A stretch of 64,000 nucleotides of DNA from Cladochytrium replicatum (Eukaryota; Chytridiomycota; Chytridiomycetes; Cladochytriales; Cladochytriaceae), in NCBI GenBank assembly GCA_025526935.1, contig JAHLKD010000001.1, positions 1,426,001 through 1,490,000 on the forward strand, written 5' to 3'. Positions 11,871-60,871 of this stretch are shown here, one piece after another; the stretch's first letter is position 1, and every line of letters starts with the position of its first letter. Made by a program: the position numbers and the translations under genes. Under the pieces are notes generated by a model that was given only the letters and a program-made list of their open reading frames with translations, was not told where the DNA came from and did not search any database.

Positions 11871-13097
11871 TTTTTTGAACTTCATAATATGTATTTGTTT
11901 CCAACCAGGATTGACAAACAACAAATCGATAATGGAGTAACCATTGCGAGAAGAAAATGTGGGGTTATGACAGGAAGGGTGCTTAACTAGAGAGAAACTA
12001 GCGGCAGAAATAAATTGCTCAAACAACCTACCCCTACGATTTCAAGAATGATCACCAGTAGCTAAAAAACGGGCATTGAAATCGCCCAACAAAAGAACAG
12101 GGCAGGGAGACGACGGGACATGTTGAGGAAGCGAAGCAATAAACTCTTCAAGGAAGGGGTCCTGAGCAATACCACACGGAGGCAAATAATACCCTCCAAC
12201 CAAAAGCCCACGAAATGTAAACCATAGAGAGGTGCCACCATAACTAGAAACGAGACGGAAATCAGAAGCTCTACAAAGACTGCGATTGATCAAGACTCCC
12301 ACACCAGCCCGTCGTGTACCCGATGACCCAGGAGAAAAGCGAGTGTCAAAAATCAAATCTGGGGAAGGCAGCAGGTCTAAAGGAAAAAGGTGTATTTCAG
12401 TCAGGAGCAGAAAAACAATGTGATTTGGGCGCATAAAATGAAACAGTGAATCAAGAACTCCAAAGCTCAAATTTCAACAATTGAAGGTACCAACTCGAAC
12501 ACTAATCATTGACGAAGATGGGTTGAGCGAGGCTGACGCGCAATCCCACGGGCACTGTCCAGCACAGTTTCCTGAGCATCCATGGGGAGCTGACCACGGA
12601 CATACAGGAAAATAGCAGGATCAGTAACTGAACTGAGGATATGTGCATATCTCTTGTGGACAACTTCCCTGACCGCAGCCTCCCGCTGCTCCAAAGGCAG
12701 AGTAGAGGCTCGGCAAAGAAAGTCAGGGTTTGATTTGTCAGTGGAAGCTTCCTGGGTGGAGAAGTGCGCACGGAGAGCAATTGCAGTTGAGCGAATCCAG
12801 ATAAAGGAAGCAATGTTGCGACCAACAAAACTGTGGCGGATACCACGCACCACCTCATCGCCCAAGAGAGCCCTCAGCATGGTCCGCACAAAGCCGAGCC
12901 GCTGTCTCATGATGTCCTTGATGTACACAGTGGTCAAATCATCCACACGGTCCTGAAGATCAGCAGGTGGGGAGACCAGCAGCGGAGAGGTTGGTGGATA
13001 GAATACAACAGGCCGAGGGCCACGAAGGCTGACATTCGAAGTGGGGTCACGACCAGCAAGGACAGTCCTGACAGGTTCTGCACGAGATTCAGCACTC
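11871..13097 (-). mobile_element. Non-LTR element A, internally deleted copy of the D family
   Basis: The 3' end starts with a T-run (minus-strand poly-A) at 11,871-11,879 and the same terminal sequence as element D (gaacttcataatatgtattt). After about 35 bp it jumps directly into the endonuclease part of ORF2, matching D from about 20,421 onward, and continues into ORF1 up to the point equal to D 21,615. The 12,042-12,470 part encodes EN residues close to D's, and 12,506-12,946 the ORF1 C-terminal region. About 2.9 kb of ORF2, including the whole reverse transcriptase, is missing. Nucleotide identity to D over shared parts is very high, so it is a recent copy. It is cut at 13,097 by the poly-A end of element B. 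Confidence 0.85.
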
Positions 13098-17476: not shown

Positions 17477-17639
17477 GTTCGAACTTTTTTTTTTTGGAAC
17501 TTCATAATATGTATTTATTGTCCAACCAATACATATCACCCGCTGGTGCAAAATCCAAATACAAGTGTAAAAATACACGCAAATTGGCAGCATATGGGGA
17601 GCCGTGCGAGCCGTAGGAAAAGTAAAATGTTTCAAAACA

Positions 17640-17993
17640 CTAAGGCATATCCAAATCAACAAAAGCAGACAAGATACAATCAGGAGCTGGAGACAAAACT
17701 AACTCATAACCAAGACAGTTTGACCAAATTTGGTTAAGTGCACGAAGAACAAGAACCCACTGGGAAAAAGCAGGGGAAGGATAAAAAGGCCGTGGTGAAA
17801 GCATATCAATTGCAATGTCAAGAGGTAGGCGGGGATCGTCAGGCGGGCCCAAATCAAAACTAGCAGACAAACTAGCACGCAAATGTAGACACACAGAGAC
17901 ATGGGCACGCGACACTTCAGGGGCATCATGACAGTTCCTACAATAAGGTCGGGGGTTTGGAAACAGGCGGCCAAGCCGATATAGCAGGAACAA
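17640..17993 (-). pseudogene. Element D ORF2 C-terminal zinc-motif part, separated from the main ORF
   Basis: Encodes LGRLFPNPRPYCRNCHDA followed by HVSVC, a Cx2C...Hx3C cluster. The tail ends in SAFVDLDMP and matches the tail of element B (SLFGPAFVDL). In an intact element this would be continuous with the ORF2 at 18,061-21,021. Here the 185-bp inverted segment lies between them, so the zinc cluster cannot be translated in frame with the RT. Confidence 0.7.
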
Positions 17994-18060
17994 ACGAAGA
18001 CAATGATCTCATTGTTCCTATGCCTGTTGTGCCCCCACTTCATCCGTTGATGTTGCATTT

Positions 18061-21021
18061 TCAGTCTTTAGCTGTTGCGCATAATGGACCAATTGCAGTT
18101 TCGTTTGCCCCTGTCCTCAATTTGAAACTTCCACCCTTTGTTGCTACCCCCCACACCAACATCTCCCAACAGTATTTGTGACAAGCGGAAAAATAAGGAG
18201 ATGAACCATAACCGACTGGAGATGACCGATAGAATTGCAACACAGCAGCTGGTAACAGAGGGCTGGAATCACTAGACCAGCGAGCAAACATACGTGCCTG
18301 AAGGTACTTCAGCCTGAACTCAAAAGTAGGAATTTGCGCTAACAGCAACAAACCAACACGCGAAGTGGTATGGGCTATCGAAAACAGACGACACAGTGCA
18401 TGATAACAAAAACGCTCGAGTACCTGAAGCTGAGCAGTGGAAGGCCGAATAAGTGCTAAACCAAACTCAAGTGAAGGTCTAATAAAAGACAAAAACAACA
18501 ACCTGGCAACACGAGGAGCAGACCCACCAAAGTACGAGACATAAGGTGCAAAAAGATACAATGAGGCACGAGCTTTCTCTAAGCGATGATCAATAGTTGC
18601 AGCAAGATCAAACCCTTCAATAGTAAAATAGTGACCAAGGTATCTAAATGAAACCTCTACAGGGAGGGCAGAGCCATGAAGCTTCAAGGGGGTGGGTAAC
18701 CGTTGAGAAGATAACACAGCACACTTTGAAGGTGAAAACACAAAATGAGAAGCTAAAGCAAAATCTTTACAAATTTTCAATGCACGTTGGGCCTGCTCAG
18801 GGGTGGCAGAAAACAAAGCTATGTCATCAGCAAAAAACAACGAATTGAAAACAGGAGTGTTATAAGAAAACCTAGCAAGATGAGAAGATTCACGACGAAG
18901 GAGCTGTGCTAAAGGATTGATGAAAACTGAGTACAAGAACGGAGACAAAACAGAACCTTGAAAAAGACCTCGTGGAAGCGAAAACAAATCAGAAGAACGA
19001 TTCTCTATAACAACCTGAGAAGAACAACGATCAAACATACTCATCAAAACAGAGATCAAACGGTTTGGAATTCTGGGAAATTGACGAAGACGTTCCCACA
19101 AAAGAGGCCTATGCACAGTATCATACGCTGCTTTAATATCTAAGAAAGTAACACAATAAGGCAGAGCAGTGCGGGAAGCCCGTCGAAGGGTAGCATCTAA
19201 TGCAAAAACACACTCAACACCTGAACGATTGGCCTGGAAACCAGCTTGGGCGGGATCAAGTTTACCAACATGAGCTACAAGCATAGGAAGCAGGGTACAC
19301 TCAAAGATTTTTCTATCAACATTGGTTAAAGTAATGGGGCGGTACTGACTAATATCACCAATGGAGCCCTTATTCTTCCAAACAGGTAACAACAAGCCAG
19401 CATTCCAGGCAGAGGGCGACAAACCTGAACGGAAAATAGCGTTTGAAAGTTGAACAAAAAGGATAGCAACATCAGAAGCTAACGGCTTAAATAACTCAGC
19501 TGGAATATGGTTTGAGCCAGGAGCAGAGTTGTTTGGGGAAGAACGAATAGCACAAACAAAGTCACTAACACTAACTGACACAGAATCATTCAGCGCATGT
19601 AGACGAACGTGTTCTGCACTGGCAGAGGATTGTGCAAACTGAGTCTGATAAACGGAGGCAAAGTGATTGCGATAATGAGATAAAGAGGCAGGATCAGACA
19701 ATAAACCACTTGCAGCTGAGTGCCGTTGATGACACCTACGCGCGGTGGAAAGAACTTTGCTAACCTCGGTTAAAGAACTAGGAGAAGAACTAAACATATT
19801 GTCGCCAGAAGCCTCTCGAGCTCGCTGAGAAAGAGACCAAGTACGAAAAGCTTTGACACGCTCACGCGATAGCCGGTCACGCTCCAAGCGGCAATACTCA
19901 ACTAAACCAGGATCAGGATCATCACAGGAAGAAACAGCTAAATAGTGCTTATGAGCAAGTAAGTAGCTCCGTCGCAAGGCCACTAAATGCGGCGGCAACA
20001 ATGGCAGGGCAGGGCGACGGCGAACTAAACTGGGGGGTCCAATGACACAAGCAGCACATGAAGTAACAAAGGACAAAATAATATCCAATGCAGAGTCAAT
20101 ACATCCCTGTGCAACATCCACAGACATTTGGGCAAAGGCGGGAGCTTCTAAAATTGGACTGAGTGCAGCATTGCCATCAGCAAGGGTGGGATCAAAAAAC
20201 AAATGTCCCACATCCTCCATTGCTTGAAAGACAGCAGGTTCACGCAACAGATGAGCAGCCCAGCGCTTGTGGGGGGGTGCAGCAGAGGGAGCGCTGGCAT
20301 TGGGAGGAGCAAAAGAAAAAACAGCTGTAACCGGAAAATGGTCAGAAGCCCAAGGCATAAACTCGCCGTCGGCTAGACGACTATGAACTATGTAAGAAAT
20401 AGGATCACATTGAAGCAGAGGATTGACAAACAACAAATCGATAATGGAGTCACCATTGCAAGAAGAAAATGTGGGGCTATGACAGGAAGGGTGCTTAACT
20501 AAAGAGAAACTAGCGGCACAAATAAATTGCTCAAACAACCTACCCCTACGATTTGAAGAATGATCACCAGTAGCTAAAAAACGGGCATTGAAATCGCCCA
20601 ACAAAAGAACAGGGCACGGAGACGACGGGACATGTTGAGGAAGTGAAGCAATAAATTCTTCAAGGAAGGGGTCCTGAGCAATACCACACGGAGGCAAATA
20701 ATACCCTCCAACCAAAAGCCCACGAAATGTAAACCATAGAGAGGTGCCACCATAACTAGAAACGAGACGGAAATCAGGAGCTCTACAAAGACTGCGATTG
20801 ATCAAGACTCCCACACCAGCCCGTCGTGTACCCGATGACCCAGGAGAAAAACGAGTGTCAAAAATCAAATCTGGAGAAGGCAGCGGGTCTAAAGGAAAAA
20901 GGTGTGTTTCAGTCAGGAGCGGAAAAACAATGTGATTTGCGCGTATAAAACGAAACAGTGAATCAAGAACTCCAAAGCTCAAATTGCGACAATTGAAGGT
21001 ACCAACTCGAACACTAATCAT
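18061..21021 (-). CDS. Element D ORF2: endonuclease-reverse transcriptase
   Basis: 986 residues in one frame. The N-terminal EEP endonuclease shows VGTFNCRNL, PLLTETHL (catalytic Glu), LLLGDFNARF (Asp/Asn pair) and WASDHFPVTA (catalytic Asp-His), within about residues 1-230. The RT spans roughly 430-780, with YRPITLTNVDRKIFE, AGFQANRSGVECVF, FLDIKAAYDT, GLFQGSVLSPFLY and FFADDIALF (catalytic Asp pair). A thumb region follows to about 930. The last 34 or so residues come from antisense reading of the inverted segment and are not native. It starts at ATGA, overlapping the ORF1 stop by four bases. Nicking and target-primed reverse transcription activities could be intact, but the missing C-terminal zinc cluster argues against autonomous mobility. 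Confidence 0.88.
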   Translation of the reverse strand: MISVRVGTFNCRNLSFGVLDSLFRFIRANHIVFPLLTETHLFPLDPLPSPDLIFDTRFSPGSSGTRRAGVGVLINRSLCRAPDFRLVSSYGGTSLWFTFRGLLVGGYYLPPCGIAQDPFLEEFIASLPQHVPSSPCPVLLLGDFNARFLATGDHSSNRRGRLFEQFICAASFSLVKHPSCHSPTFSSCNGDSIIDLLFVNPLLQCDPISYIVHSRLADGEFMPWASDHFPVTAVFSFAPPNASAPSAAPPHKRWAAHLLREPAVFQAMEDVGHLFFDPTLADGNAALSPILEAPAFAQMSVDVAQGCIDSALDIILSFVTSCAACVIGPPSLVRRRPALPLLPPHLVALRRSYLLAHKHYLAVSSCDDPDPGLVEYCRLERDRLSRERVKAFRTWSLSQRAREASGDNMFSSSPSSLTEVSKVLSTARRCHQRHSAASGLLSDPASLSHYRNHFASVYQTQFAQSSASAEHVRLHALNDSVSVSVSDFVCAIRSSPNNSAPGSNHIPAELFKPLASDVAILFVQLSNAIFRSGLSPSAWNAGLLLPVWKNKGSIGDISQYRPITLTNVDRKIFECTLLPMLVAHVGKLDPAQAGFQANRSGVECVFALDATLRRASRTALPYCVTFLDIKAAYDTVHRPLLWERLRQFPRIPNRLISVLMSMFDRCSSQVVIENRSSDLFSLPRGLFQGSVLSPFLYSVFINPLAQLLRRESSHLARFSYNTPVFNSLFFADDIALFSATPEQAQRALKICKDFALASHFVFSPSKCAVLSSQRLPTPLKLHGSALPVEVSFRYLGHYFTIEGFDLAATIDHRLEKARASLYLFAPYVSYFGGSAPRVARLLFLSFIRPSLEFGLALIRPSTAQLQVLERFCYHALCRLFSIAHTTSRVGLLLLAQIPTFEFRLKYLQARMFARWSSDSSPLLPAAVLQFYRSSPVGYGSSPYFSACHKYCWEMLVWGVATKGGSFKLRTGANETAIGPLCATAKD

Positions 21022-45200: not shown

Positions 45201-48200
45201 ATTCACAACACCAGCTTTCACTCCACCGGTGTCGTCACTGTTTCCTCAGCCACCAAAGGACACTTTCACCCTGAATCAAACTGCCTCTTTCTCTTCTATT
45301 TCAATTCCATCTTTTTCGAAACCACTGCCTCCACCGGAACCAGTTGTACAACGACCATACATTCCCGATACAGTAGCCGACGACATATTACTTACGTTGT
45401 TAGACGAGCACGTGCGGAATGCAGTGCACGAGCAATGCACGGGGTCCCTTCAAGAGATGCAACGAAGATCGGGTGATCTAGTTGCGCGAGTCGAAGGAAG
45501 CGGAATGCTCACGGAGCTTGCTTCGGATTTGCTTGTGGAAGTCACAGACTCGATGCTGACGGAAGTAGGTTCATGGGCAATGCAGGCGTGGACGGACGTC
45601 AGTGTAGAAGTAGCGCGGAGAGTGTTGGAGGAAGCTTACGCGGAAATGATGTTTGTTGTCGCTAACGAGGCGGTGTGGGAAGTCGAGCGGGAGGTACGGA
45701 TACTGTCGAGAGTATGGGGATACTGGACACAGAAGATGAAGAAACGTGCGGAACGACGAGCGTCACTGCAAAAGCGACGGAGAAACTTTATGGAGAATGC
45801 TAAGGAGGTTGGAGCGGCGGGGCCAACTGTGACAGGATGGGACATGAGAGGTGCAAAGCGGAGAAGAAAGTCGGGCGATGTGATCGACAGCAGAGATCTT
45901 GATCAAAGCTTGACCGACGTTTTCACCAAGGTTCGAATGGAGGAGATTACTTACGAACATAAACATGAACTAATAGTTCGGCAATGATATACGCAGGCCG
46001 ATGAGCGAAGACAGATGCTGATGAACCCACTGGATTTAAATGCAATCCTGAGCACTTCGCTCAGTCCTGTATCGACATTTTGGAAGCTATGTATATGCCC
46101 ACCGAGCAACCGAACGAGCGAGGACAATTTCCGCCGTGCATGGATTTGGAGCAAGTTTGGCCCCTTGGAGGAGGACATATGGGATGAATCGCCTGCGACC
46201 GGGGACGAGAACACGGTGACGCAGATCATGCGGACAAAAGTTGGCCAAAATAGTGTTGAGATTCTTGTCCAAAGCGTGGATGTTCGAACGCCTGCAATCT
46301 ACCCACTAAAGGTATTTTATCCGCGACAACTGAGACTGTGAAATTCAACTTTTCCGCTGTAGCATAATGCCGAAGCGCCCTTATCTGGCGCAAACGCGAT
46401 CATTTTCGCTCTTGACAGTTTCCCAGACGGGCTTGATTCGCCCAGGTAAGAAAACATCTCGAGGGCCGCCAAGGGCGCATTTAATTTGCGTTTGATAGCA
46501 TATCCTGGGGACGCGAGCGCGAGAAGTTGTATGCTTTCCTCAGCTGTCTTCCAATTCAAGCAAATGTGCCGCTTTTGCTGATAGTTTGGACAAGAAGCGA
46601 CCGAGTCGTTGAATCTCTCCGCAATGACGTAAGATTACATTCAACAATCGTCGTGACACTTTTTTGAACTCCATGTCAGGTGGCTGAAAATCTTAACCTC
46701 AATTCAATCATCGAGAAAGGACCAGTCAAATTGGTTGAGCTCTTGTACCTGCCATTTACCTCAAGTGGCGATCCACAAGCACTATCAATCAGTTTTGCAG
46801 AGAAGCTGCGCTGGTTGGCCGAGAATTCAGAGGATCTTCCGCTGCTCCGTTGTGAAATCTACCAAGGTAAAGAAGGCGAACACCTGCGCAGTCACAGCTA
46901 GATTAACTTCATTTTTCAGACCTTGTAGATGCACAAACGCTTGTCCATTTGGCGACTGCTACGAGGAAAGTTGCTGACTCGTTCCCAAGTGATCCGATGT
47001 GTATGTCTAAATAGTCGTTATTTTTTTCTGGCATTGAATTTTCCTACTGGCAGCTTTGGATCTCTCCAAGCATGTTGAAGCGTTTGACGTACTCGTTGAT
47101 CTTTTCAACGGGCAGGTTGAGGCTGTGGGATCAGTACTTGCCGATCCTTCTTTGATAGAGCTTGCGTACCCCGCAAAGGAGCAAGAAGGGCCACACGTAC
47201 CAGTTTTGGAGTGGAACACACCGACTGCAATCGAACAAGTTGCGTCGAATATTGCAGAGTTCCAGCTTCCCAAAATGCGTGTTAGGATTGCAGAGGTTGT
47301 TGGGGATGTTGAAATGCTTCTAGAGGGTCCAGGTCCCGCAGATTGCATTCGGTAGGGCTGCTACTTTGGGAATAGATCCGTAATGCTGATATTATTCTTC
47401 AGGGGAATTAAGCGTATGTACGCTAGTTATATCGCCGGGCTACGCCGATTACCAGGAATCACGGAATCCGCTGTGTCGAAAGTATCTCGAGACGTTTGGC
47501 ATTACCTTAGTGCCTATGAAGAGCAAAAAGGTTGGTCCATTCAACAGCGGATATACCAGATTACGGATAATTGATTCCATATCAGCTCATCGTTTCCCGC
47601 TCGATGCAATATTCGAATCCATTGCAACCGCAATTCTCTTCACCATGGAGCAAAGGTTGAGCTATTCCGATCGGCAATACACACGATCTCCAACACACAG
47701 CACCGTACATTCGCCATCGGATGACACAGCACCATTCTTTTATCTTGTGGCACAAATCCCAGTGGCAGCGAACGCATTCCGAAGATTATCGTTAGAACTC
47801 TTGTCGGCCTGGGAACGGAGGGTACGAGAATGGAGCTTGGCGACGTTGAACGGATGGCATACACCGCCGTATTCGAATGGAAAGCAAAGAGAAGCAGAAA
47901 TAACGATTCCACAGCTTTCCCCGATCAGCGTCAGTTTCGACACCCAAGTCGTGAGGTGGGTTGATGACTTCATTCATGATTTCATTGTCATTTGACCGTT
48001 CTTATTCTTCTTCTGCCAACTCATAACGTATCATCTCACTGAAACATTTTTCACGTATCCCATTCCGATCCTCATCCTGGGTCTCAGCAATAGAGTCAAC
48101 GAAACATCAAACGGGGGCACACTTTCCTCTGGGGAGATTTCTCCGCCCAAAAACCATTACGATCAATCTTTTGTGAACGTCTCAACGTCAGCAACTGGCG

Positions 48201-48310
48201 GTGGGAGCTTGCCAAAGCTATCACTCACTGAGCGACTTCAGCAAAAGATTGCAGCTGCCAGAATGGAGCTTAAAAACTCACAATCGTTTGATGCGAATGT
48301 GTCAATCTAA
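42289..48310 (+). CDS. SAC3: SAC3/GANP (MCM3AP)-like mRNA export factor
   Basis: Scaffold of the TREX-2 complex at the nuclear pore. Exon 1 is only MADT (ATG 42,289) and splices to PPRTTGFRSESFPGRGG, a Gly/Arg-rich RGG-type N-terminus (42,470-42,680). The SAC3 core begins AITFVGECMDMCPEYERHER, then PGTDNVDHSRAVKRFKRPA and FLRDRQRAIRSDFQLQN. An intron at about 44,021-44,070 restores NMVLQSLSEFYEENARRGYF. It continues EYAEFFRL-type SIQYAEFFRLVRD. A Ser/Thr/Pro/Phe-rich stretch with GFSFLT and SFSFLT repeats resembles FG-type nucleoporin sequence (44,900-45,330). The acidic-basic helical region after it, including WEVEREVRILSRVWGYWTQK, may bind centrin/Sus1 as in the CID region. The C-terminal 2 kb matches the MCM3AP/GANP C-terminal domain in layout. 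About twelve introns are present and no frame breaks were found. Confidence 0.85.
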
Positions 48311-48395
48311 GGAGCTCGCTTTTTGGGACCATACTATTTTGTACAGATTGAATTGTTTTGTCTAGAAACATTAAAAATGAAACGATAATTCAGTA

Positions 48396-51300
48396 ATGCT
48401 GCGCCAACTTCCACTCATGGAACCGAAGCCTCTGATGTCGGTGCGAATTGTCGCAATCGACTCCTACCAGTGCGCCCCGCACCCACTTATGGATCGGTGC
48501 TTTTCTCAATTCAGCCCTCCTAATTCCCCGGTTTCAGAAGTGCCGGTCATTCGAATTTTCGGGAACACTCCACTCGGAAAGAAAGTATGCATGCACGTTC
48601 ATCATGTAAGCAACATCAGGCGCTCTGTTGCGAGGTTTCAAAATAGTTTTTCATTTAATTGATGAATAAGGTATTTCCGTACATCTACATTCCATATGAC
48701 GGTTCAACCGACGAAACTGAAGGTTCTGGTACTGAGTGATTTCATGCAGCGAACTTATATCAAAGCAGTTCAACTATTTAGTTTCCAGCTTGCATCGAGT
48801 TTGAATTATGCAATCACCATATCGAACGGAAAGTCGTATGATAATCCTACGAAGAATCAGCACATAGCTGCAATCTTTCTGACTCAAGGAATACCATTCT
48901 ACGGGTTTCATGCAGACTATCAACTTTTCCTGAAGATCTACTTATATCCTCCAGCAACTGCTTGCGTGATTTTCAAAAATCCATGAGGTTGTTCTTAACT
49001 GGAAACTTCGCTCACTCTCAGCCCATATATAGTTTCAAAAGCTGTTGGACTACTGGAGTCCGGTGCCATAATGGGACGTGTCTACCAGACCTACGAGTCT
49101 CACGTCCCATTTCTTTTGCAATTTTTGATTGACTATAACTTATATGGAATGGATTTCATTCACATGAAAGATTTGCGGTTTCGACTTGATGAAGAGAAAA
49201 CTGCCAACAGTGAGTTTAATTACCTCCTGGTCTCCCTCAGACAGTAATACATGCTACGCAGATATTCACCAAAGTCAATGTGTTGATGGAGTTACCTTGT
49301 CGGATTCATATTTGTGGCCAGCACACTGCAAGATATCTCGGCAGAGCTACTCAGAACTTGAAATTGATGCACAGTCTTGTGATATACTGAACCAAACAAC
49401 AGTTAGGCAGAGAGAAACAGATGCACTGATTGATTTGACCAGTTCAAAAGTACACACCTCAAAGCTTGTTCCATCATTAGCAGCAATCTGGGAAGATGAA
49501 TACCAAAGAAGGCTTTTAAGGGAGTTACCAGAGATATCAACGCCACCATCACAAAAGATTGCAAGAGACACATATCTACCCTGGTCAAACGAACACACAC
49601 TACGTACTCTTCTTGATGAGAGGCTTTCAAACTGTGATCAAAGTCAGTACCAACAAGGTTCAGTTAATTCTCCTTTGAAAGGTGTCTTGACCACGTATGA
49701 AGCCATTGGAGCACTTTATATTGCACGGACTTTGCAATTACAAGTGGAAGCATCAAGTCTCGATCTTAAGAGTAGGTCTAGCTGGGATATCGTTCGCTCA
49801 AATAGTGGATCTCAGGATGGCTCAAACAGTGCTCTCTATGAACCACTTTCAAAACAGAGTAAATTAGAGGCAATTGGTACATTGTCACAATATGAATATG
49901 ATAATGTAATGGAAAAGATTTCAATAAATGTTGATGAGAATATCATAATGGGTGCATCACAAGTGGTCAGAAAAGGAACTTACTTTCTTTGATATAACAT
50001 TGATAAGAAGAAAAGGGTCTGTCCGATACAGTGGATTTACTTGACTGGTTACAGTTAGAAATGGACGTCAATGATACCTATACTGATGAAAATGCAGATG
50101 ACCATGTTTTAGGTAATGAAATACTCATCAGTGGCGGATTCAAATAATGTTATTGCAATCTAGATACCGGAGATGATAATATTACCGAGTGGGATAATCT
50201 CTTTGATGATATGGAGGATGAGATTATTGACGAGTACATATCTGGAGACTCATTCTTAATTTGTTTTGACCAGTTTCTAGGGGTGCCAATATGCCAACGG
50301 ATGAGAATGGAATGTTAAAGGTAGTTTCCGCAAGTACCACAAATAGGCACAAAATAAAAGTTAATCTTTAAGTAAGATCATCGATTATATGCTTAACCAA
50401 AGCAACTGAAACATTACAAGAATTCCTCAAGTCGATGGGATATTCAACGATGATATGCACTTTGATGTATGCACAGTATTAACTAAGTTACCACACTGAC
50501 TGTTCTCTAGGGAAAGAAAGTAGTAGCACACAAATTACTTTGGTGCTAAACTTACTATTATATTACAGATAGTGTTTGAGCCTTTTGGATTTGACACAGA
50601 ATCTTCTGATAAAAATGATGTGGAAATTGGACTTCCAGAGAAACAACCCACATATACCAACGAGAAGAATTTCTGGGAAACAATTGAATTGTTATCACCA
50701 AACCAGGATACCAACATATACTCAAATTCAGGTGCCCAACAGCAAGTACCAACCATATTATCTGAGGTATCAGAATTCTGTTTGTACTGTTATGTCAAGC
50801 TTTTTTTAATATGCTCTATTCAAAGACTGCAGAGCCTGAAAATTCTGAGAACTATCCACCAGAATCTTTCAATAAGAATAGTCTAGAGAAAGAGGCATCA
50901 TCACATTCACATTTAGTATACTCATTTCCTCAGAAGACGTTGCTTGAGAAGAGCTTTGCTGAAAGAAACATACCAGAAATAGTATATAATGAACCCAACT
51001 TCAGTGATACAAATGATATTCCCAGATTCTCAAAAACAATTTCAACAGAGGAGATAAACTTTAGGGCCCGTTCAAAGTTAAAGCCTTTTGAACATGGAAT
51101 TGTAACGTCATCACATTTTAGTAAGGATTCTGTTTACAATTATCCATGGTCTAATTGCTAAATAGGGCCATTTGCTCCTGATGCTGATTGGTAATTTCCT
51201 TAAAGTAATAAATGTGTAAAACTAAAATTCCAACAGTCAGAAGAGTACTATTCGACATTGGACATCCCCACTAATGCCCCCCCTTAAATCCCAAAATTAT

Positions 51301-54300
51301 GCAAAAATTTGCAGTAAGTGTTATTTTGATTTTTAGTAAATTCCTAAATATCTCCGTAAGAAGCTTCTGCATTAAGAACAAAAGCTCCAAAGGTACGCCT
51401 TTTGCACTTGCAAAAATAGTTAAGTTTCTACTGATGGTGATAAAGCAGACTGAAGTATCCAGAAAGCAGAAGTATGGGTTCAAATTTAGTCATTCCATAC
51501 CACAAATTCGCCCAAGTACATGCCAATATCTGAAAGTAATGAGTGTTGAAATACATGGTGAGGTTGACTGCACTTGTCCCACATTTCTGATGTTCATTAT
51601 CTATGTTAGTGAGAACCCGTGAAAAGATGTTACCTGACCCAACGCTGGACCCAATATGTGGGATCTTTTTCTGCATTAGGGATGATGATTTGCTTGAAGA
51701 ACCTGAGAGGTAAACTGGAGTGTCAAATATGAGCCTCACCAATTCAAATAAACAGTGAAATGATGGGTGCATTCGTTGTCTGTGATCTCAGCAAAATGAC
51801 GAAAACTGAAATGATTGGTACACACCAATTGTCCTGAAGAAAACATTTTTACTCACTTGCTCAATTGAATCAAGGTTATAATATTGAATACTTCAGTAGT
51901 GAACATGAAATAATTACAAAACTCTATGAGACAGTACGTCAGTCAGACCCGGATATTTTGGTTGGGTTTGAACTACATAGGAATTCATGGGGCTATATAA
52001 TTCAGCGTGGATTCCAATACAGTGAGTATAAATTTGGAGCTGTGTTTAATAGTCTTCTAATCAACTTCATGGCAGATATTGATTTATCCAGAGAGCTCTC
52101 ACGTATTGCTGCAAACACTCAGAAGAATATCAAAATAAATGAGTACTTTGATAAAAAGCAATCATCTCTGGTTACAACTGGACGACACTTTCTGAATATC
52201 TGGAGACTGTTGAGATCTGAGCTTGCATTAACTTCCTATACATTTGAGAATATTGTTTTTCATGTATGTCATACAAGGTATATAAGCAAGCACTTTTTGA
52301 TTTTCTGATGACTAACTAAAATCAGAGTTCCACGTTACTCTTACGATACATTATCTGGGTGGTTTCTCCGTGGAGGTCCTTTCACCTGCCGTGTCTTCAG
52401 ACACATGTTTAATTCTGTAAGACTTAATTTAGACATTTTGAGCAGAACCCAGATTATCAGTAGGACAAGGTTGGTAAAGATATATATTAATGGCCGTAAC
52501 TTATAAGTATCAGTGAATTTGCAAGAGTGTTTGGGATAGATTTTATGTCTGTCATTACACGTGGATCTCAATTTAAAGTTGAAAGCATAATGTGCAGAGT
52601 TGCTCGACCTGAAAACTTCATAATGATCTCTCCAAGTCGAATGCAAGTTGCACAACAGAGAGCAATTGAGTGTATCCCACTTGTTATGGAGCCAATGTCA
52701 AATTTCTACAGTTCTCCATTACTTGTCCTTGATTTCCAAAGTCTGTACCCCTCTGTCATGATTGCCTATAATTACTGGTGAGGTAGTTGCATAATGTGAA
52801 TTGTATGTTGACATACTATACATCTGAAAGCTACTCAACATGCCTTGGTCGAGCTAAGAAGATTGGAGAGCCCAGCAAATTTGGCATCCTTGATGATTTT
52901 GAAGTTCCACTAGAAGTTGTTCAAAAGTTCAAAGATCACTTGAATGGTGCATATTAAATTTGTGTTATCGTCTTTTGATTGAATATTTTTCTCTTCCAGT
53001 ATCACCAAATGGGATGGTCTTTGTCAAACCTCATATTCGGCAAGGAGTGATCCCTAGAATGCTCTCTGAAATTTTGGAAACTCGAGTAATGCTCAAACAA
53101 TCAATGAAGCACTACAAAGATGAAAAGGTATTGTATTGGTTATTTTTTTGCATGTAATTAATATCTCCAAAGTATTTGTACAGGATTTTAGATGCTCGTC
53201 AGTTGGGAATGAAATTTATAGCAAATGTCACATATGGATATACTGGCGCTTCATTTTCAGGTAGAATGCCGTCATCAGAAATTGCTGATGCTATTGTGCA
53301 GACAGGACGCGCAACACTTGAACGGGTATGTTTGGAAAATGTGCATCATATAAGTTGTAGTCAATCATTGTTCTCAAGTGTATCGACATGATTCATAATA
53401 CTTCTGAGTGGAAAGCTAAGGTTGTCTATGGGGATACAGACAGTCTCTTTGTCTATCTTCCTGGAAGGACGAAGGCTAGCGCATTTAGGATTGGAAAAGA
53501 GATAGTGGACCACATGACACAAAAGAATCCCTACCCTGTGAAGCTTAAGTTTGAGAAAGTATGCAGGTTACTGTAAACATGACAAGAAAAGTTTCAATTA
53601 ATTCTGTTAGGTGTACCATCCATCAGTTCTACTGACAAAGAAGCGTTATGTTGGAAATATGTTTGAAACAGAAGGACAGACAGTTGGTGTTTTTGATGCA
53701 AAGGGGATCGAGACAGTTCGAAGAGACAACTGTCCAATAGTTGGCAAGACTCTGAAAGCATCACTACTGTATGTGTTCCACGTAACTTTTGAGGCCCATA
53801 CATTTACACTGACTGTGCAGGGAATTGTTTCATACTCAAGACATGTCAAGGCTGAAGAAGTTCCTCACAAAGCAGTTCAGTGATATAATGACAGGTCAAG
53901 TATCTGTCATGGACTTAATAATTGCAAAGGAAGTGAAATGGGGCTCATACAGGTTTGTGATATAGTTAGATAATTGGAAATACAGATTGATGGAACGTTT
54001 ATTTGTCAGTTCTGTTGGTGTGCCACCACCTGGAGTAATGGTAGCTCTCAAGAAACTCCAAAACGATGTGCAAGCAGAGCCGCAATATGGCGAAAGAATT
54101 CCATATGTGGTGGTTGATCGTGGTCCTGGGTACAGGCTGGTTGACTGTGTAATGGATCCCGAAGCGTTTATGCGCAGGTTCGGCCAATACAACCTTTTGC
54201 AAGGCTATTTATTTATTGAATACTTGAAAAGTTCCCTGCAGATACATTCGAAGTACTACATAACAAAGCAGATCATCCCTGCGCTGAATCGAGTTTTCAA

Positions 54301-54844
54301 CATTGTTGGCATTGGTATTACTTTATTCCGAGTTGCCACAGACAACCGCTAACGCTTATGTTTTGCAGATATTATGCAGTGGTTCAACGAAATGCCAAAG
54401 CCCTCCACGTTCACGTCAATTGTATCATCAGGATATCAAATCAAGCAACTCACCTTTGGGATACACACCAAGGGCGGAGCTGCTCCTTCCACATTGGACC
54501 AGTATTATGCTGCTCAAAAGTGTCGTATATGCATGGATCACACTGCTAAAGGTGAGTTCTTTATCTCTTCCCTCGCAAAAATTAAGAATTGATCTACAGC
54601 GATTTGCGATGGCTGCGAGACTCAAACAGAGGCCAGTACTCTCCGGCAGTCTTACATGACGCGACATTCAGAAAAGTACTTGAGCAGCATACTGGATGTA
54701 TGCAGAGCGTGCTCAGGCCAACCAACGATGCTCGGCATACGGCAACCATCACAACAACTTCTGGGGGGAGCGGAATCATGCGCCTCGTTGGATTGCCCAT
54801 ACTTTTACTTGAAACAAAAGGCACTCAGCGTGTATGGGTTCTAA
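48396..54844 (+). CDS. REV3: DNA polymerase zeta catalytic subunit
   Basis: B-family translesion polymerase. The N-terminus has IVAIDSYQCAPHPLMDRCF and PVIRIFGNTPLGKKVCMHVH with VFPYIYIPYDG. A long poorly conserved middle is interrupted by introns. The exonuclease-like domain starts YLKVMSVEIH and PDPTLDPICGIFFCIRDDD, then DPDILVGFELHRNSWGYII. Polymerase motifs are LVLDFQSLYPSVMIAYNY (motif A), KFIANVTYGYTGASFSGRMP (motif B), VVYGDTDSLFVYLPG (motif C) and LTKKRYVGNMFE. The C-terminus has two cysteine clusters: CRICMD...CDGC and CRACSGQ...LDCPYFY, the second being the [4Fe-4S] site that recruits Rev7/Pol31-type subunits. It is unusually AT-rich and Asn/Ser/Ile-rich compared with neighbours. 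It starts 85 bp after SAC3 and ends 90 bp from CstF50. Confidence 0.92.
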
Positions 54845-54934
54845 ATTTTCGCAACAACTCAATGAAATGTTAAGTTTTGCATCGGGCTATCGCACGAGCT
54901 AATGTACAGAGGGTAAAATAGATTCCATGGGCCA

Positions 54935-56820
54935 TTAAAGCTCAACATTCCAGTATTTTACTCGATAATCATCACCGCACGAAACAAATGCAGCATCAAT
55001 GGGACTTGAATTAACTGCGCGAACCAAATTGTATTTTGAGTGTCCTGAAGTTTAAGCAGAATATTAGAATGCAAATAACATCACTCAGCCAGATATTAAC
55101 TCACCAGGAAAACGCTTCAATAGCATTCCTGTAGAGAACAACGTAATTCAGTCAAAACTGCACTAAAGCTAGACGAAAACGCACCTGTTCGGCTGTCCCA
55201 GCAAAATATTGAGGAAGTTTGCTCATCACTCATGAGGACATAGTCTTCATTCGATGTGAAAGCTACTGTCGAAAAGTGTTTCTTTTCAAACGTTGTTTGG
55301 TCACCATAAGACGAAGCGAAACGCGATACTATGATCTCACCTTTTGCGTTGCCCCCTCGAAAGTGTGCAACTGCTTTTGAGCGCCAAGGTCCCAGAGCCT
55401 CCCAAGAGAATCCAGACCGTTGGACAGTAAGTACTTGCCATTCTTTGAAAATCGAATCGATGACACAGGTTGCCCAGAGTGAGCTTTCGCAAACATCTGG
55501 ACGCATCTACCAGACACTCCGTCGTACACTTTTATCGAACCATCATCACTGCAGCTTGCTGTAGAGTGTCTTAGAAATTAAAATAACAGAAATTGAATCT
55601 AAAATACCGAACATGTTGCCTTGAGATGCATAACGGACCTAACAATGAACCGTCGTCAGGTCAGGGTAACGACTCCATTCCCATCTAATCTGGGGACATA
55701 CGCAGTTGATAGGGGCAGAATGAAAGTCGGATGGGTTTGGAGGTGTAAAGCACGTTGATGTTTGAATATCGTACATCCTAACGGCATCGTGCTCAGTTCC
55801 TTTAAAGGTTTGTCAGCTTACATGTTTCATACACAGCAAAGCGTACCAGAAAGCAAAAACTCTCCACATGGATGGAATGAGATTGATCGAACAGGATACG
55901 AATCTTGGAAGTATTTAAAGCTCCTTTTGGCGGGTTTTTGAAGATCATAAAATTTGATAGTATGATCTTCGCTGCACGAAGCCAGTACCAAGCCGTTAGG
56001 ATGGAATTGGAGTTCGTTAATCGGACCAATGTGGTCATAAAGCGTCCGGATAACTGAGTAATATAAGATGAACCGAAAGATCCCACCTCTTATCCGCACT
56101 AAAGCTTACCCGCCTTATCTTCAACATTATCTCGATGATTTGACTTGATCCTACCCACATCAATGATTTTGATCGATGAGTCTCTCGAACCAGTCGCCAT
56201 GTATTTCCCATCAACTGTAAATGCTGATGTTACGGCGAAATGAGTGAGAGAACGTCGTTCTGCCTCCAACATATCTCGCACCTGCACATCGAGCTGCAGC
56301 CCGATGCTGCGTGGAGTACCATGTGGTATAATTTGGTGGCGGTCGTGGTTCAGCAGCTGTGGTGTTTTTCAGTCAACACACATCATCAATAACGTTCAAT
56401 GTGCCGGTTACGAGTTTTCACATTTGTATCGATCACAAGACCGTTCGTCTCCAAATCCTCTTCTTCTTCGTCTTCGGCAATGTTTCCAACTGGTACCAAT
56501 TCCTCGTCTTCTTCCTCTATACCAGAAGTTTGAGGTCAAATCAAACAGCAGAAATAGATCCCAACGTCTCGCGTGCAAAGAATCGTCTAACCTGCGTCTT
56601 TTGTGTCTGATCCTGCATGAGCAAGCTCCGCCAAACGTGCCGAAGCACCGTATGGCAATGAAAATCCACTTTCCTCTGCAAGGTGCAGTGCTGTCGCAGC
56701 GTACCCATAGAATTGCAGCTGGTTTATAATCAACGGGATCAGCTCGTCTTTCTGCATCTGCGCGAGCTCTCCAGCGGTGTCCTCGAACATATCCGTGGCA
56801 ACCTCGTCGTTTGGGTCCAT
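54935..56820 (-). CDS. CSTF1: Cleavage stimulation factor 50-kDa subunit (CstF50)
   Basis: WD40 scaffold of the mRNA 3'-end cleavage complex. Starts at the ATG at 56,820 (MDPNDEVATDMFEDTAGELA). The N-terminal dimerisation helices include LIPLIINQLQFYGYAATALH. WD repeats follow: FTVDGKYMATGSRDSSIKII, VIRTLYDHIGPINELQFHPN, VLASCSEDHTIKFYDLQKPA and SISFHPCGEFLLSG. Further on come RFSKNGKYLLSNGLDSLGRL and NEDYVLMSDEQTSSIFCWDS, with the last repeat ending RVKYWNVEL (stop 54,935). The RTLYDH and KRSFKY segments are characteristic of CstF50 rather than other WD proteins. Introns are short and consistent. Confidence 0.9.
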
Positions 56821-56941
56821 CTTCAGGTTGCAATTGCGCCTCAAATAGGCTAATTAAATAGCAGATGGTGAATAGCAAACGGACGACCAACAGCGACACT
56901 GGATGAGGGACTGAGAGCCGGGAACTGGCTGAAATCTGTTT

Positions 56942-57475
56942 CTCAATTAGCAATATTCACCTTGGAACGAGCACAAGAATTGCAGTCGATCCTTGATATA
57001 CTTGATGCGGATATTATCTGTTTCCAGGAAACCAAGGTGACACGACCGCGCATTGAACCTGATGCGGATATGGTACCTGGATACGATGGGTTATTCTGGT
57101 GTGGTATTCTGGTGTGGCGACGTATGTAAAGTACGGGATCACGCCAGTTGCTGCCGAAGAAGGGCTCACCGTTATCCTTGGGATGCCTCAACTATCCGCA
57201 ACCACCGCGCAGCCAATCGATGTTGGAAACAATGCAGCTATGGCCATTATGGAGATATTCACCAAGAATTCTCAGCGAGTGAGCAAGAGGCACTTGAATG
57301 AGGACCACGTCGTGTAACGGATCACAGACTCTTCGTACTCTTCAACGTAATTGACTCTTCGACCTCTCCAACGTAATTGATTTCGTATTCTGGCATGAAA
57401 TTCGGTAATCAACCCCATTTTTGCAGATTTACTTCCCGAATGATGCATCAGAAGAAGGTGGAGACTTCCAAATGA
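56942..57475 (+). pseudogene. Relic of an APN2-type AP endonuclease
   Basis: Exonuclease III-family fragments in order: ELQSILDILDADIICFQETK, with the catalytic-Glu motif, then VTRPRIEPDADMVPGYDG. A frame change leads to YSGVATYVKYGITPVAAEEG, and after an intron-like gap to IYFPNDASEEGGDFQMK and an immediate stop (about 57,427-57,477). The catalytic Asp and His motifs of the second half are absent. The chain breaks in GYDG...YSGVATY, where a block of residues is missing. No start codon is seen. It lies between two minus-strand genes and is probably a truncated duplicate. Confidence 0.65.
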
Positions 57476-57644: not shown

Positions 57645-59296
57645 TCAAATCACAATCAGATCATCCAGCCCATTCACAGTGACATGGGCCTCCAGCTCTG
57701 CAACGATCTCGTCCAGCAGCTGCGGAGTGATGTTGCCCGTGTTGACCTTCTCAAGAAGATGGCGAAGGCAGTCGAGCTCACCTTCGAGGACCGCCTTCTT
57801 ACGACGCAAGGCGATGATGGTGTCTTGGTAGGACTCTTCCACGCGGTTGGAGATGGCGGAGAGGATACGGATGACACGCCAGATACGGAGGAAGATGATG
57901 ACGTTGGCACTAGCGCCGCCTGCGCCGGTGAGAATGACCTGAGCGACAAATGTAACAATGACGACGATAGCTATGAAAGTGCGACAAACATCAGCAATCA
58001 ATGTGAAATGTTTGCGTCATTACTCACCATCGAAAGATTCGAGCCAGTCATCGGTGAACCGTCGAATCCCAAATGCCACAAACTTTGACACCAGTTCCGT
58101 CACGAACACCGCCAAGATCGCCAAGGAAACCCTCGACAACACCAATAGTAAGTCTCCAAAGTACTCTGCTTCCTCCTCGGGCGTTGTGAACAACGAGATC
58201 AGGAGCTCGGTGATGACGATCAGGATGTCGACGCAAACAAGGATGAGAATGGACCATTCGACTCTAGGAGAGTCGAGGAACATCCCGAGCTTTCTGCGGA
58301 GGATGGTGAACTTGGTCGGTTCCGATGCAGCTGATCCACCGCGTTCGAAGAAGAGCGTGACGGCGCGATTGGCGACCGTGTGAGCGTGGTTGCGGAGCAC
58401 AAAAATAGGCTCGCGTCCATTTGAGCCCGTTTCGGGGTCGGATGGAGGCCCATCTGCAGTGCTTCCCGGACGGTCGAGAGATGAGAAGTCGGCAGAATAG
58501 AAGAGGGATGGGTTGTTGGCGATGGTCTTCCCGAGTTGGTTGGAGAGGTTCTCGATTTCCGTTTCGATTTCCTCGATTTTCTCCTCGAGTTCTTCGACCT
58601 GCGGTTCATATCGCTCCTGGACATTCTCGACGACTGGAAAAAGAAGATTAAAACAGGGATTTTAATGGGAAAGAGGCAAACGCCGACAAACCTCCTTGCA
58701 TGAAATCAAAGATGCGCCAGATACGGAAACCGATAAGGAGCGCTGCAGCATTTTCTGCATTTCCTTTGAGGTAGATTTGCAAGGATGCACTGGTGATTGT
58801 GACAAAGCCTAGAAATTTGAAAGTGTCAAACAAGGTGGCATCATAAGGATTTGGGTAGCTTGTACCATCGATGAAGTTCAGGAAGGACGAGAAATAGTAC
58901 TTGATTCCAAAAACATAGAGCTTCGCAAAGAATTCCAAGATGAAGATAAACATGATGATGTCACCGATAGTTCCAAAAACGATGTATGCAATATCGTCAA
59001 GACCCTCTTCCTCGTCGATGGTGGTGTACACAGCAATGACCATTTCAGTCAACGTGCAGGCCATGTCCAAGACTACAAATGCAAAGCATGAGCAATTGTT
59101 GTCCTAAAATTCTAATGTGCATCCACGCACAAACAAGAATAATGATGGTTGCATGAGTTCGCGGGTTTTCGAGAAAGTCTCCGAGTAGCTTCTTAAACTT
59201 TGCGAGCCCGGTGAGCTGCACCTCCGTATGTCCATTTTCGTTCTGCTGTCCACCCAGTAACGGGGTCTGCTCGTTGTTTACCACTGCATCCGACAT
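57645..59296 (-). CDS. Tandem two-domain Hv1-like voltage-sensor protein (putative proton channel)
   Basis: Five exons, 473 residues, no frame breaks. Residues 9-14 (EQTPLL) form an acidic dileucine signal. Domain I: S1 IIILVFLDMACTLTEM (D58), S2 FIFILEFFAKLYVF (E102, K106), S3 FLNFIDGFVTIT (D124), S4 GFRIWRIFDFM (R153, R156, then D159). A coiled coil (about 165-195, QVEELEEKIEEIETEIENL) and a linker follow. Domain II: S1 SILILVCVDILIVITE (D299), S2 AVFVTELVSKFVAF (E343, K347), S3 ESFDAIVVIVTF (D365), S4 FLRIWRVIRILSA (R394, R397, R400), then a C-terminal coiled coil. RxWRxxR in S4 with an S1 Asp is the Hv1 proton-channel signature. Known Hv1 subunits have one such domain and dimerise by a coiled coil. 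Function as a channel is inferred. Neither domain is followed by a pore domain. Confidence 0.85.
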
Positions 59297-59402: not shown

Positions 59403-60871
59403 ATGACACACTCTCCCCCGAAGGACCAGTCCTTCTCGTCGTCGGTTGAGCCAATCCAGGCCGCCGCTGTCATCATTGCTGGCGCCGGCGTTGTCTCGTT
59501 CCTGTTGAATTCAACCGTGCTCAAAGGCTCCGTTTACGCTCTGGATTCGCTCCACCTCGTTCTCATCCAGCTCGTGCTCGTCGCTCTATTCCATGAAGCG
59601 CTCGGTCTTCCATCCGCATCCGCCTATCTCGGTTTGAAGAAGGCGGCCACCACCACCGTGACTGTGGTTAAGGAAGTGAAGATCCCGACCCCGGCTCAAT
59701 CCTCCGTAATTGCAGACGCCGCTCCCGCTGCTGAAATGGCCCAGAAAGTCGAGGCCACAGCGGGTGTCGTACCAGCACCTGTCGAGAATCCCAATTTGAA
59801 GAGGGCTGGAGCGATTATGGACAAATTCATTTCTTTGGCAAACGACAAGGACCCCGCCCGCTGGCAGCAAGTTGCCCAGCAGAGCCGCGGAGAATTCAAT
59901 GTCACTGTCTTCAAGAACACTGAGCGGCCGTTCTGCCTGCGTTTGGAGGCCACTCTGGAGGTGAGCCAGTAACAACATGGCTGTGACGTCATCATTGAGT
60001 TCAATTTTCCCTTCCTGAACTTTGCTAGTCCACTCCCGAAGAAGCGTTTGATCTCCTCAGCGACCCCGATGCCCGTCCAACCTGGGACGACGTCACAAAT
60101 GAATGTGGCATCCTGGAGCACGTCCAGCCCGCCTGCCGCGTCATGTATATGCGAACGAAAGCGATCTTCCCCACTGCCGCGCGCGACGTCCTCGTTTTTG
60201 GGTCTGCTCGTCGCATGGTCGAAGCTGGTCCCCGCACTTACATCTACGCCATCTCAGGCTACGGCGACAGCCACCCGAAATATACTGCTAGGAAAGGTGA
60301 CGTTCGTATGGAACTCCACGTCGGTGGCCAGATTGTGTCTCCCGACCCCGCCGGCCGCGAAGGCTTCTGCCGCGTGGTTCAGATCATGGACGGTGATCTC
60401 AAAGGATGGCTTCCCGCATCCGTTGTCTCGTTGGTTACCACCCAGGCGATGCCGGCTGCGATGGGAAAAGTCAACTCTATTCTCCGAAAGAAGACTGAGA
60501 AGCTGACGGAATCTGCTCTGATCAAGTTCGTTGAAGACGAACTGAAGAAGGCCGGGACTGTCGCGCCTGTTGCATTGAAGCCGACGGCACACGCTGAGGC
60601 CGCACCTGCGGCGACACCCTCTCCTGCTGCACCAGTGTCCACTCTGCCTGCCGCACCTACTCCGCAAATCGCAGATGTTAAAACCACCCCGACCGCGCTC
60701 GACGCCATTCTGAATGCAGTTCTCGGACCTCTGTCGATCGATCCCAAACCTGTTCGTGCAGCTATTCTGCTTGTTCATAGGTCCCTCTCGGCAACTCAGC
60801 CGTGGTTCGTCACCATCATTGTGCTGATGTACGCAATTCGCGCCAATCGTCGAAAAGCTGTCGCTGCATAA
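59403..60871 (+). CDS. Membrane-anchored START-domain lipid-binding protein
   Basis: 466 residues in two exons (intron 59,961-60,028 joins ATLE to STPEEAF). N-terminal hydrophobic helices (AAAVIIAGAGVVSFLLN and LHLVLIQLVLVALF) lie within residues 20-65. An Ala/Pro/Val-rich linker and a START-like domain at about 130-345 follow. That domain includes RPFCLRLEATLE, FDLLSDPDARPTWDD, RVMYMRTKAIFPTAARDVLV and GWLPASVVSLVTTQAMPAAM, the usual C-terminal START helix. A second Ala/Pro linker and a C-terminal hydrophobic helix (QPWFVTIIVLMYAI) with basic end RANRRK suggest a two-ended membrane anchor, perhaps ER or contact sites. The ligand is unknown. It starts 106 bp from the voltage-sensor gene on the other strand. 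Confidence 0.82.

Follow-up and report, generated by a model that had tools for sequence, protein, structure and literature searches.

The animal proton channel Hv1 (HVCN1) is a dimer of two separate, equal chains, each with a coiled coil after the fourth helix (S4) of its voltage-sensor domain (VSD). Fungal Hv1 proteins such as Suillus luteus SlHv1 and Aspergillus oryzae AoHv1 likewise have an S1-S4 sensor with RxWR in its last helix, followed by a coil; the fungal Hv lengths listed in the same source are 183-309 residues, and Spizellomyces punctatus XP_016610604, the only chytrid listed there, has 227 (Zhao and Tombola, PMC7910559, from the part available). In engineered linked dimers, two Hv1 subunits are placed in one chain, C-terminus to N-terminus, through a 17-residue Gly-Ser linker, so that one subunit only can be mutated (PMC4568520). 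HVRP1 (TMEM266), in turn, has an Hv-like sensor and a coil but is a single-sensor protein without channel activity (PMC4148356), while the multi-domain two-pore channels are thought to have arisen by intragenic duplication (PMC5150636). Here we analyse a gene in 64,000 nucleotides of Cladochytrium replicatum contig JAHLKD010000001.1 (this whole stretch is the window; its contig is C1 below), which encodes, in order, a four-helix domain, a coiled coil, a 79-residue linker, a second four-helix domain and a further coiled coil. An earlier note on this DNA knew of no described tandem Hv1 family; in agreement, no natural tandem Hv1 was found in the open-access literature, judged by title or abstract start among the matches listed, and the stems tandem and concatem are absent from the tree-of-life Hv review (PMC10377628). 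From its sequence, we think the gene probably encodes an Hv-family proton channel made of two whole subunit modules that are joined by a cytosolic linker and folded on each other, with the second sensor (VSD2) as the proton path and the first (VSD1) as its tuner.

Gene structure and the second copy

When the genome (198 contigs, 50.5 Mb) was searched at the protein level with each half, only the C1 locus and one locus on contig C4 came up. The C4 gene also has five exons, encoding 475 residues, and its introns of 51, 65, 55 and 59 bases lie at the same codons and phases as the C1 introns of 58, 57, 58 and 57 bases (all GT-AG, all phase 1), offset by a two-residue insertion near the start. Identical residues are given by 433 of the 473 aligned codons; the non-synonymous rate (Ka) is 0.048, the synonymous rate (Ks) 0.64 and Ka/Ks 0.075. 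VSD1 (residues 34-163) is identical at 129 of 130 positions (Ka/Ks 0.006), pre-S1 plus VSD2 (281-405) at 122 of 125 (0.033) and the C-terminal part with coil 2 (406-473) at 66 of 68 (0.026). Coil 1 (34/38; Ka/Ks 0.18) and the linker (63/79; 0.21) are less alike, and the 33-residue N-terminus diverges most (19/33; 0.34). Exons of the two copies are 71-92% identical, and their introns match at 32/58, 45/66, 31/60 and 36/60 columns.

The joining stretch is informative in this comparison. Across coil 1 and the linker, 32 of the 50 differences between the copies fall at third codon positions; this, together with the low Ka/Ks, indicates a translated, maintained stretch. From S4 of VSD1 up to the final three residues no internal methionine is shared: C1 has Met 281 only and C4 has Met 242 only, and since these do not coincide there is no conserved ATG for a separate VSD2. 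That this is a single maintained gene and not a neighbouring pair is well supported by the second locus: its introns are the same, purifying selection acts on both domains, coil 1 and the linker, and an internal start is not conserved. The layout of the predicted spliced gene is thus conserved, with purifying selection on both halves.

Splice modelling with a hand-picked set of splice sites reproduced the coordinates, strand, five exons and 473-residue product of the earlier note (Table 1). Other combinations are also open, giving 501, 492, 482, 479 and 477 residues as well as a second 473-residue chain. We chose the present model on two grounds taken from C4: intron 2 of that gene has 65 bases, so that its retention disrupts the reading frame, and the intron 1 sites of the two copies correspond. 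The first of these grounds rules out the 492-residue product with intron 2 retained. The exon 1 donor reads GTGCGTG here and GTAAGTG at the same codon in C4.

Family assignment and asymmetry of the two sensors

The two domains had been described as Hv1-like, and the searches bear this out. Pfam Ion_trans (cut-off 25 bits) matches the whole protein twice, at 61.5 bits, and each half alone, at 33.6 and 39.2 bits; the matches end at profile position 110-111 of 241. When the halves were compared with solved chains only, without a tree, 3wkv came first for both (E 9.5e-15 for VSD1, 1.7e-16 for VSD2) and 5oqk, human voltage-gated hydrogen channel 1, second (E 3.8e-9 and 6.8e-11). The structure table labels 3wkv only as 'Ion channel'; we take it to be the mouse Hv1 chimera. 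The best non-Hv1 chain for VSD1 is TPTE2, at 23.6 bits, and neither half is placed firmly in another sensor family, VSP included. A hydropathy threshold of 1.4 calls six of the eight helices, S3 and S4 of VSD1 being placed by alignment to Hv1. Pore helices S5-S6 were not found: no hydrophobic segment lies between S4 of VSD1 and S1 of VSD2, where the highest 19-residue hydropathy (residues 165-285) is 0.63, and none exceeds 1.4 after residue 405. Each repeat of a two-pore channel has a pore, unlike either half of this protein. Among the Pfam families matched by the protein there is no phosphatase domain after the sensor.

VSD1 and VSD2 are identical at 42 of 136 positions (score 204), compared with 39/136 (score 139) for VSD1 and 39/123 (score 148) for VSD2 against human Hv1. 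Intron 4 in VSD2 (codon 366) aligns with intron 2 in VSD1 (codon 125). The genome seems to hold, beside the tandem gene, an Hv-like gene of ordinary layout: a single-sensor frame on contig C19 (110761-111279, +) with the S1 Asp, S2 Glu and Lys, FDA in S3 and RLWRINR in S4; beyond a likely 91-base intron lies a coil-like stretch (span 110761-111370). It has one locus, and it matches the Hv1 chains weakly (19.6 and 15.3 bits) with a bacterial Nav higher, at 23.7. Its scores of 79 against VSD1 and 95 against VSD2, set beside the 204 between the halves, make the fused halves each other's nearest relatives among the sequences compared. With its hydrophobic S4 and RxWR, this gene rules out the tandem loci as the only Hv genes of the genome. 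Searching with human Hv1 gave weak hits on C101, C13 and C19; the other 18 of the 19 genome Ion_trans matches, as well as C13, were read on their own strands, and the further RxWR words there (three in L001, two in L054, one in L057) come after sequence of lower hydrophobicity and were regarded as noise. Elsewhere, no relatives were confirmed in viral contigs or in bacterial and archaeal genome contigs, a set uninformative for fungi. The available part of PMC10377628 gives one Hv per fungal species so far, in contrast to the two tandem loci and the single-sensor gene here.

Alignment to human Hv1, whose residue numbers we partly assume, places the S1 Asp and Glu, the S2 Phe, Glu and Lys, the S3 Asp and R-x-W-R in both halves (residues in Table 1), as the earlier note had it for the S1 Asp, S2 Glu and Lys, S3 Asp and RxWR. 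The position of human Asp185 is Gln in both (Q135, Q376). Neither half has the second S1 acid (Asp123 position) or the two zinc-site histidines of animal Hv1, presumably His140 and His193. The halves part in S4. VSD2 keeps RxWRxxR (RIWRVIR), whereas VSD1 reads RIWRIFD in both copies, with Asp in place of the third arginine (R3). Described fungal Hv1 has Lys there (RxWRxxK; PMC10377628, PMC7910559, parts available). According to the former, Lys at R3 is found in fungi and in oyster Hv4, and one Penicillium has Gln there; an insect channel stays proton-selective when its R3 is changed to Ala, and voltage dependence persists after truncation before R3 (PMC10377628), so VSD1 need not be dead. Acidic R3 mutants, looked for under the names R211D, R3D, R211E and R261D, were not found in the five papers matched.

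The gene had been called a natural version of the linked-dimer constructs. The two fused units in one gene stand, but because VSD1 carries RxWRxxD the protein is not a natural counterpart of a symmetrical linked dimer: its halves differ at most positions and its linker is natural and several times longer than the engineered one.

Coiled coils, folding of the chain and rival readings

That the domains are joined by a coiled coil agrees with the heptads of coil 1 after S4 of VSD1, whose score none of 2000 shuffles reached. A second coil follows VSD2; it was absent from the earlier note, as were the S4 Asp of VSD1 and the C4 locus. Coil 1 has a net charge of -9 in C1 and -8 in C4, and coil 2 of 0 (39 residues counted). 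With the S4 Trp at a, the two coils share one best hydrophobic heptad phase, in C1 as in C4, as needed for a parallel, in-register pair; we believe the human Hv1 coil to have the same phase. Attractive g-e' pairs number 2 and 1, by direction, between coils 1 and 2, 1 in a coil 1 pair and 2 in a coil 2 pair, with 0 repulsive pairs.

We read the protein as an asymmetric natural pseudo-dimer, VSD2 being the likely proton path and VSD1 an altered partner; proton conduction, self-pairing, geometry and the division of labour are what we infer from these features. Each module would consist of pre-S1, S1-S4 and a coiled coil, and a cytosolic linker would join the two. Since each four-helix domain has an even number of helices, both would lie in the same orientation. 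The chain most likely folds on itself, with coils 1 and 2 extending from the S4 helices and pairing in parallel. VSD2, which has the Hv1 S1-S4 charges compared save the Asp185 position and the second S1 acid, would open on depolarisation as the proton path. VSD1 would have a smaller charge movement, a different voltage range of opening or no conduction at all, and would tune VSD2 through the shared coil. On a stronger form of this proposal, which we put forward only tentatively and hold to be somewhat doubtful, the protein is a natural, obligate hetero-dimeric channel in one chain: a whole Hv subunit was duplicated and the tasks were then divided, voltage-gated proton conduction falling to VSD2, while VSD1, its third S4 charge reversed, was kept purely as a gating partner. 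The host would be a flagellated fungus that has CatSper parts as well as the single-sensor Hv-like gene of C19.

Several observations weigh against the self-folded proton channel. Both copies come from one genome and hence give no evidence for presence in other species. The prediction of coil 2 is weak (its heptad score is reached by 37 of 2000 shuffles), and S3 and S4 of VSD1 are weakly hydrophobic, below 1.4. The Pfam profile of the Hv1 C-terminal coil, VGPC1_C, is unmatched in the protein at E up to 1 and was not found in the genome, though the control of that genome search also found nothing. For VSD2, human Hv1 5oqk (45.4 bits) leads a T-type Cav (44.0 bits) by 1.4 bits. Finally, the g-e' charge count does not favour the coil 1-coil 2 pair over like pairs; pairing of the coils by opposite charge was rejected, since their net charges differ but this count does not discriminate.

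The last point bears on how many chains make a channel. Two chains could pair, each coil with its like, into a four-sensor channel: like pairs of each coil form without g-e' repulsion, and in Hv1 two like chains are held together by the coil (PMC4148356, part available). We consider this arrangement unlikely, though the likeliest of the rivals, as two copies of coil 1 would make a strongly acidic pair and the 79-residue linker leaves room for self-pairing, two arguments that weigh only weakly. The covalently linked pseudo-dimer of the earlier note thus stands as one gene with two fused Hv1-like units, on the strength of the C4 copy, while a pseudo-dimer in the sense of a chain folding on itself is plausible, though two chains could pair instead. 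Less probable again is a voltage sensor without proton conduction, like HVRP1, or a protein of which neither half conducts in vivo. The missing third S4 charge of VSD1 and the existence of a coil-bearing Hv1 relative that is no channel speak for it; HVRP1, however, has Val at the S1 selectivity position (PMC4148356), where both halves here keep Asp, and both keep the S4 Trp, a consensus Hv element (PMC10377628).

A different origin of the sensors is highly improbable. In favour of both halves coming from another family (VSP phosphatase, TPC or Cav/Nav) with the effector lost is the near-tie of VSD2 between T-type Cav and human Hv1; yet 3wkv is first for both halves, 35 (VSD1) and 20 (VSD2) bits over the best non-Hv1 chain, neither pore helices nor a phosphatase domain were matched, and RxWR is in both halves. 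Hardly credible, lastly, is a pair of adjacent single-VSD genes or an error of the gene model. The splicing is predicted from a single assembly, but in two loci all four introns are retained and the exon that joins the halves stays in frame, without a shared internal start, and the C4 copy rules out the two-gene and misassembly readings.

Coordinates, surroundings and possible role

Table 1. Features of the tandem Hv gene (window positions; residue numbers of the C1 protein).
Feature	Position	Strand	Content
Gene	57645..59296	-	five exons, 473 residues
Exon 1	59131..59296	-	start codon 59296; N-terminus, pre-S1, first part of VSD1 S1
EQTPLL, residues 9-14	59255..59272	-	identical in both copies, within divergent N-terminus
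Exon 2	58866..59072	-	VSD1 S1 (D58, E65), S2 (F99, E102, K106), S3 Asp D124
Intron 2	58809..58865	-	phase 1, codon 125, directly after VSD1 S3 Asp; 65 bases in C4 copy
Exon 3	58692..58808	-	VSD1 S3-S4
VSD1 S4 motif R153-I-W155-R156-I-F-D159	58705..58725	-	same in C4 copy
Coil 1, residues 164-201	58521..58692	-	split by intron 3 (58691-58634)
Exon 4	58028..58633	-	coil 1, linker, VSD2 S1-S3 Asp (D299, E306, F340, E343, K347, D365)
Linker, residues 202-280	58284..58520	-	79 residues, without membrane helix
Intron 4	57971..58027	-	phase 1, codon 366, directly after VSD2 S3 Asp; 59 bases in C4 copy
Exon 5	57645..57970	-	VSD2 S3-S4, coil 2, C-terminus, stop
VSD2 S4 motif R394-I-W396-R397-V-I-R400	57867..57887	-	
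Coil 2, about residues 406-440	57747..57851	-	

Plus-strand open frames at 59403-60871, the second with a START domain, flank the gene in a stretch that is also matched in the C4 block; their first ATG (59403) lies 106 bases from the Hv start on the opposite strand, and the two may share a promoter. On the other side, at about 56920-57320 (+), is an AP-endonuclease-like remnant with a frame broken both here and in the C4 block; the name comes from reading the translation, the two pieces having no Pfam match.

The block as a whole comprises 11 collinear matching pieces between window 34812-64000 and C4 788104-807949, at 67-82% DNA identity and with long unmatched stretches inside it (e.g. 46853-54938); the 6.4 kb with the tandem gene are 80% identical. 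Chitin synthase matches occur with near-equal scores on the contig pairs C112/C7, C132/C2, C8/C5, C94/C111 and C27/C56. Together, the block and the paired contigs hint at a genome-wide duplication, a hybrid origin or very diverged haplotypes. A DNA search for a second copy of the radial-spoke gene returned partial matches only. Window 17485-20890 and 11907-12378 match the end of contig C4 (812750-816154) at 97-99% identity, well above that of the 80% block, and are perhaps a young mobile element.

The gene content, as read from sequence, fits a zoosporic fungus with parts of a CatSper complex in an otherwise fungal-looking genome. On C101 (183548-184170) a pore-channel exon pair lies near Cav/Nav/CatSper: among solved chains, CatSper3 comes third for the sensor exon, whereas many Nav and Cav chains outrank it for the pore exon. 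A CATSPERB_C match stands on C131 (62360-62623, E 1.6e-25), and the genome also has a radial-spoke protein and 65 chitin-synthase matches. Two rhodopsin matches, sought as an aid to taxonomic placement, barely passed the cut-off and were not used. The N-terminal EQTPLL, presumably a sorting motif of the acidic-dileucine type, points weakly to the vacuole or endosome instead of the flagellum, and chance may account for it: 4% of shuffled N-termini hold such a motif and 8% of shuffles reach the identical run. Since sperm pair proton exit through Hv1 with calcium entry through CatSper (PMC6104424, part available), a flagellar role for the tandem Hv is our guess by analogy.

Hv1 subunits work as dimers and affect each other's opening, which laboratories study with subunits welded together. 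If the reading is true, a natural welded pair, one half of which has a sensing charge lost and reversed, would offer a test, without any engineering, of the second subunit's purpose; it would likewise test how far proton-conducting sensors may stray from RxWRxxR.
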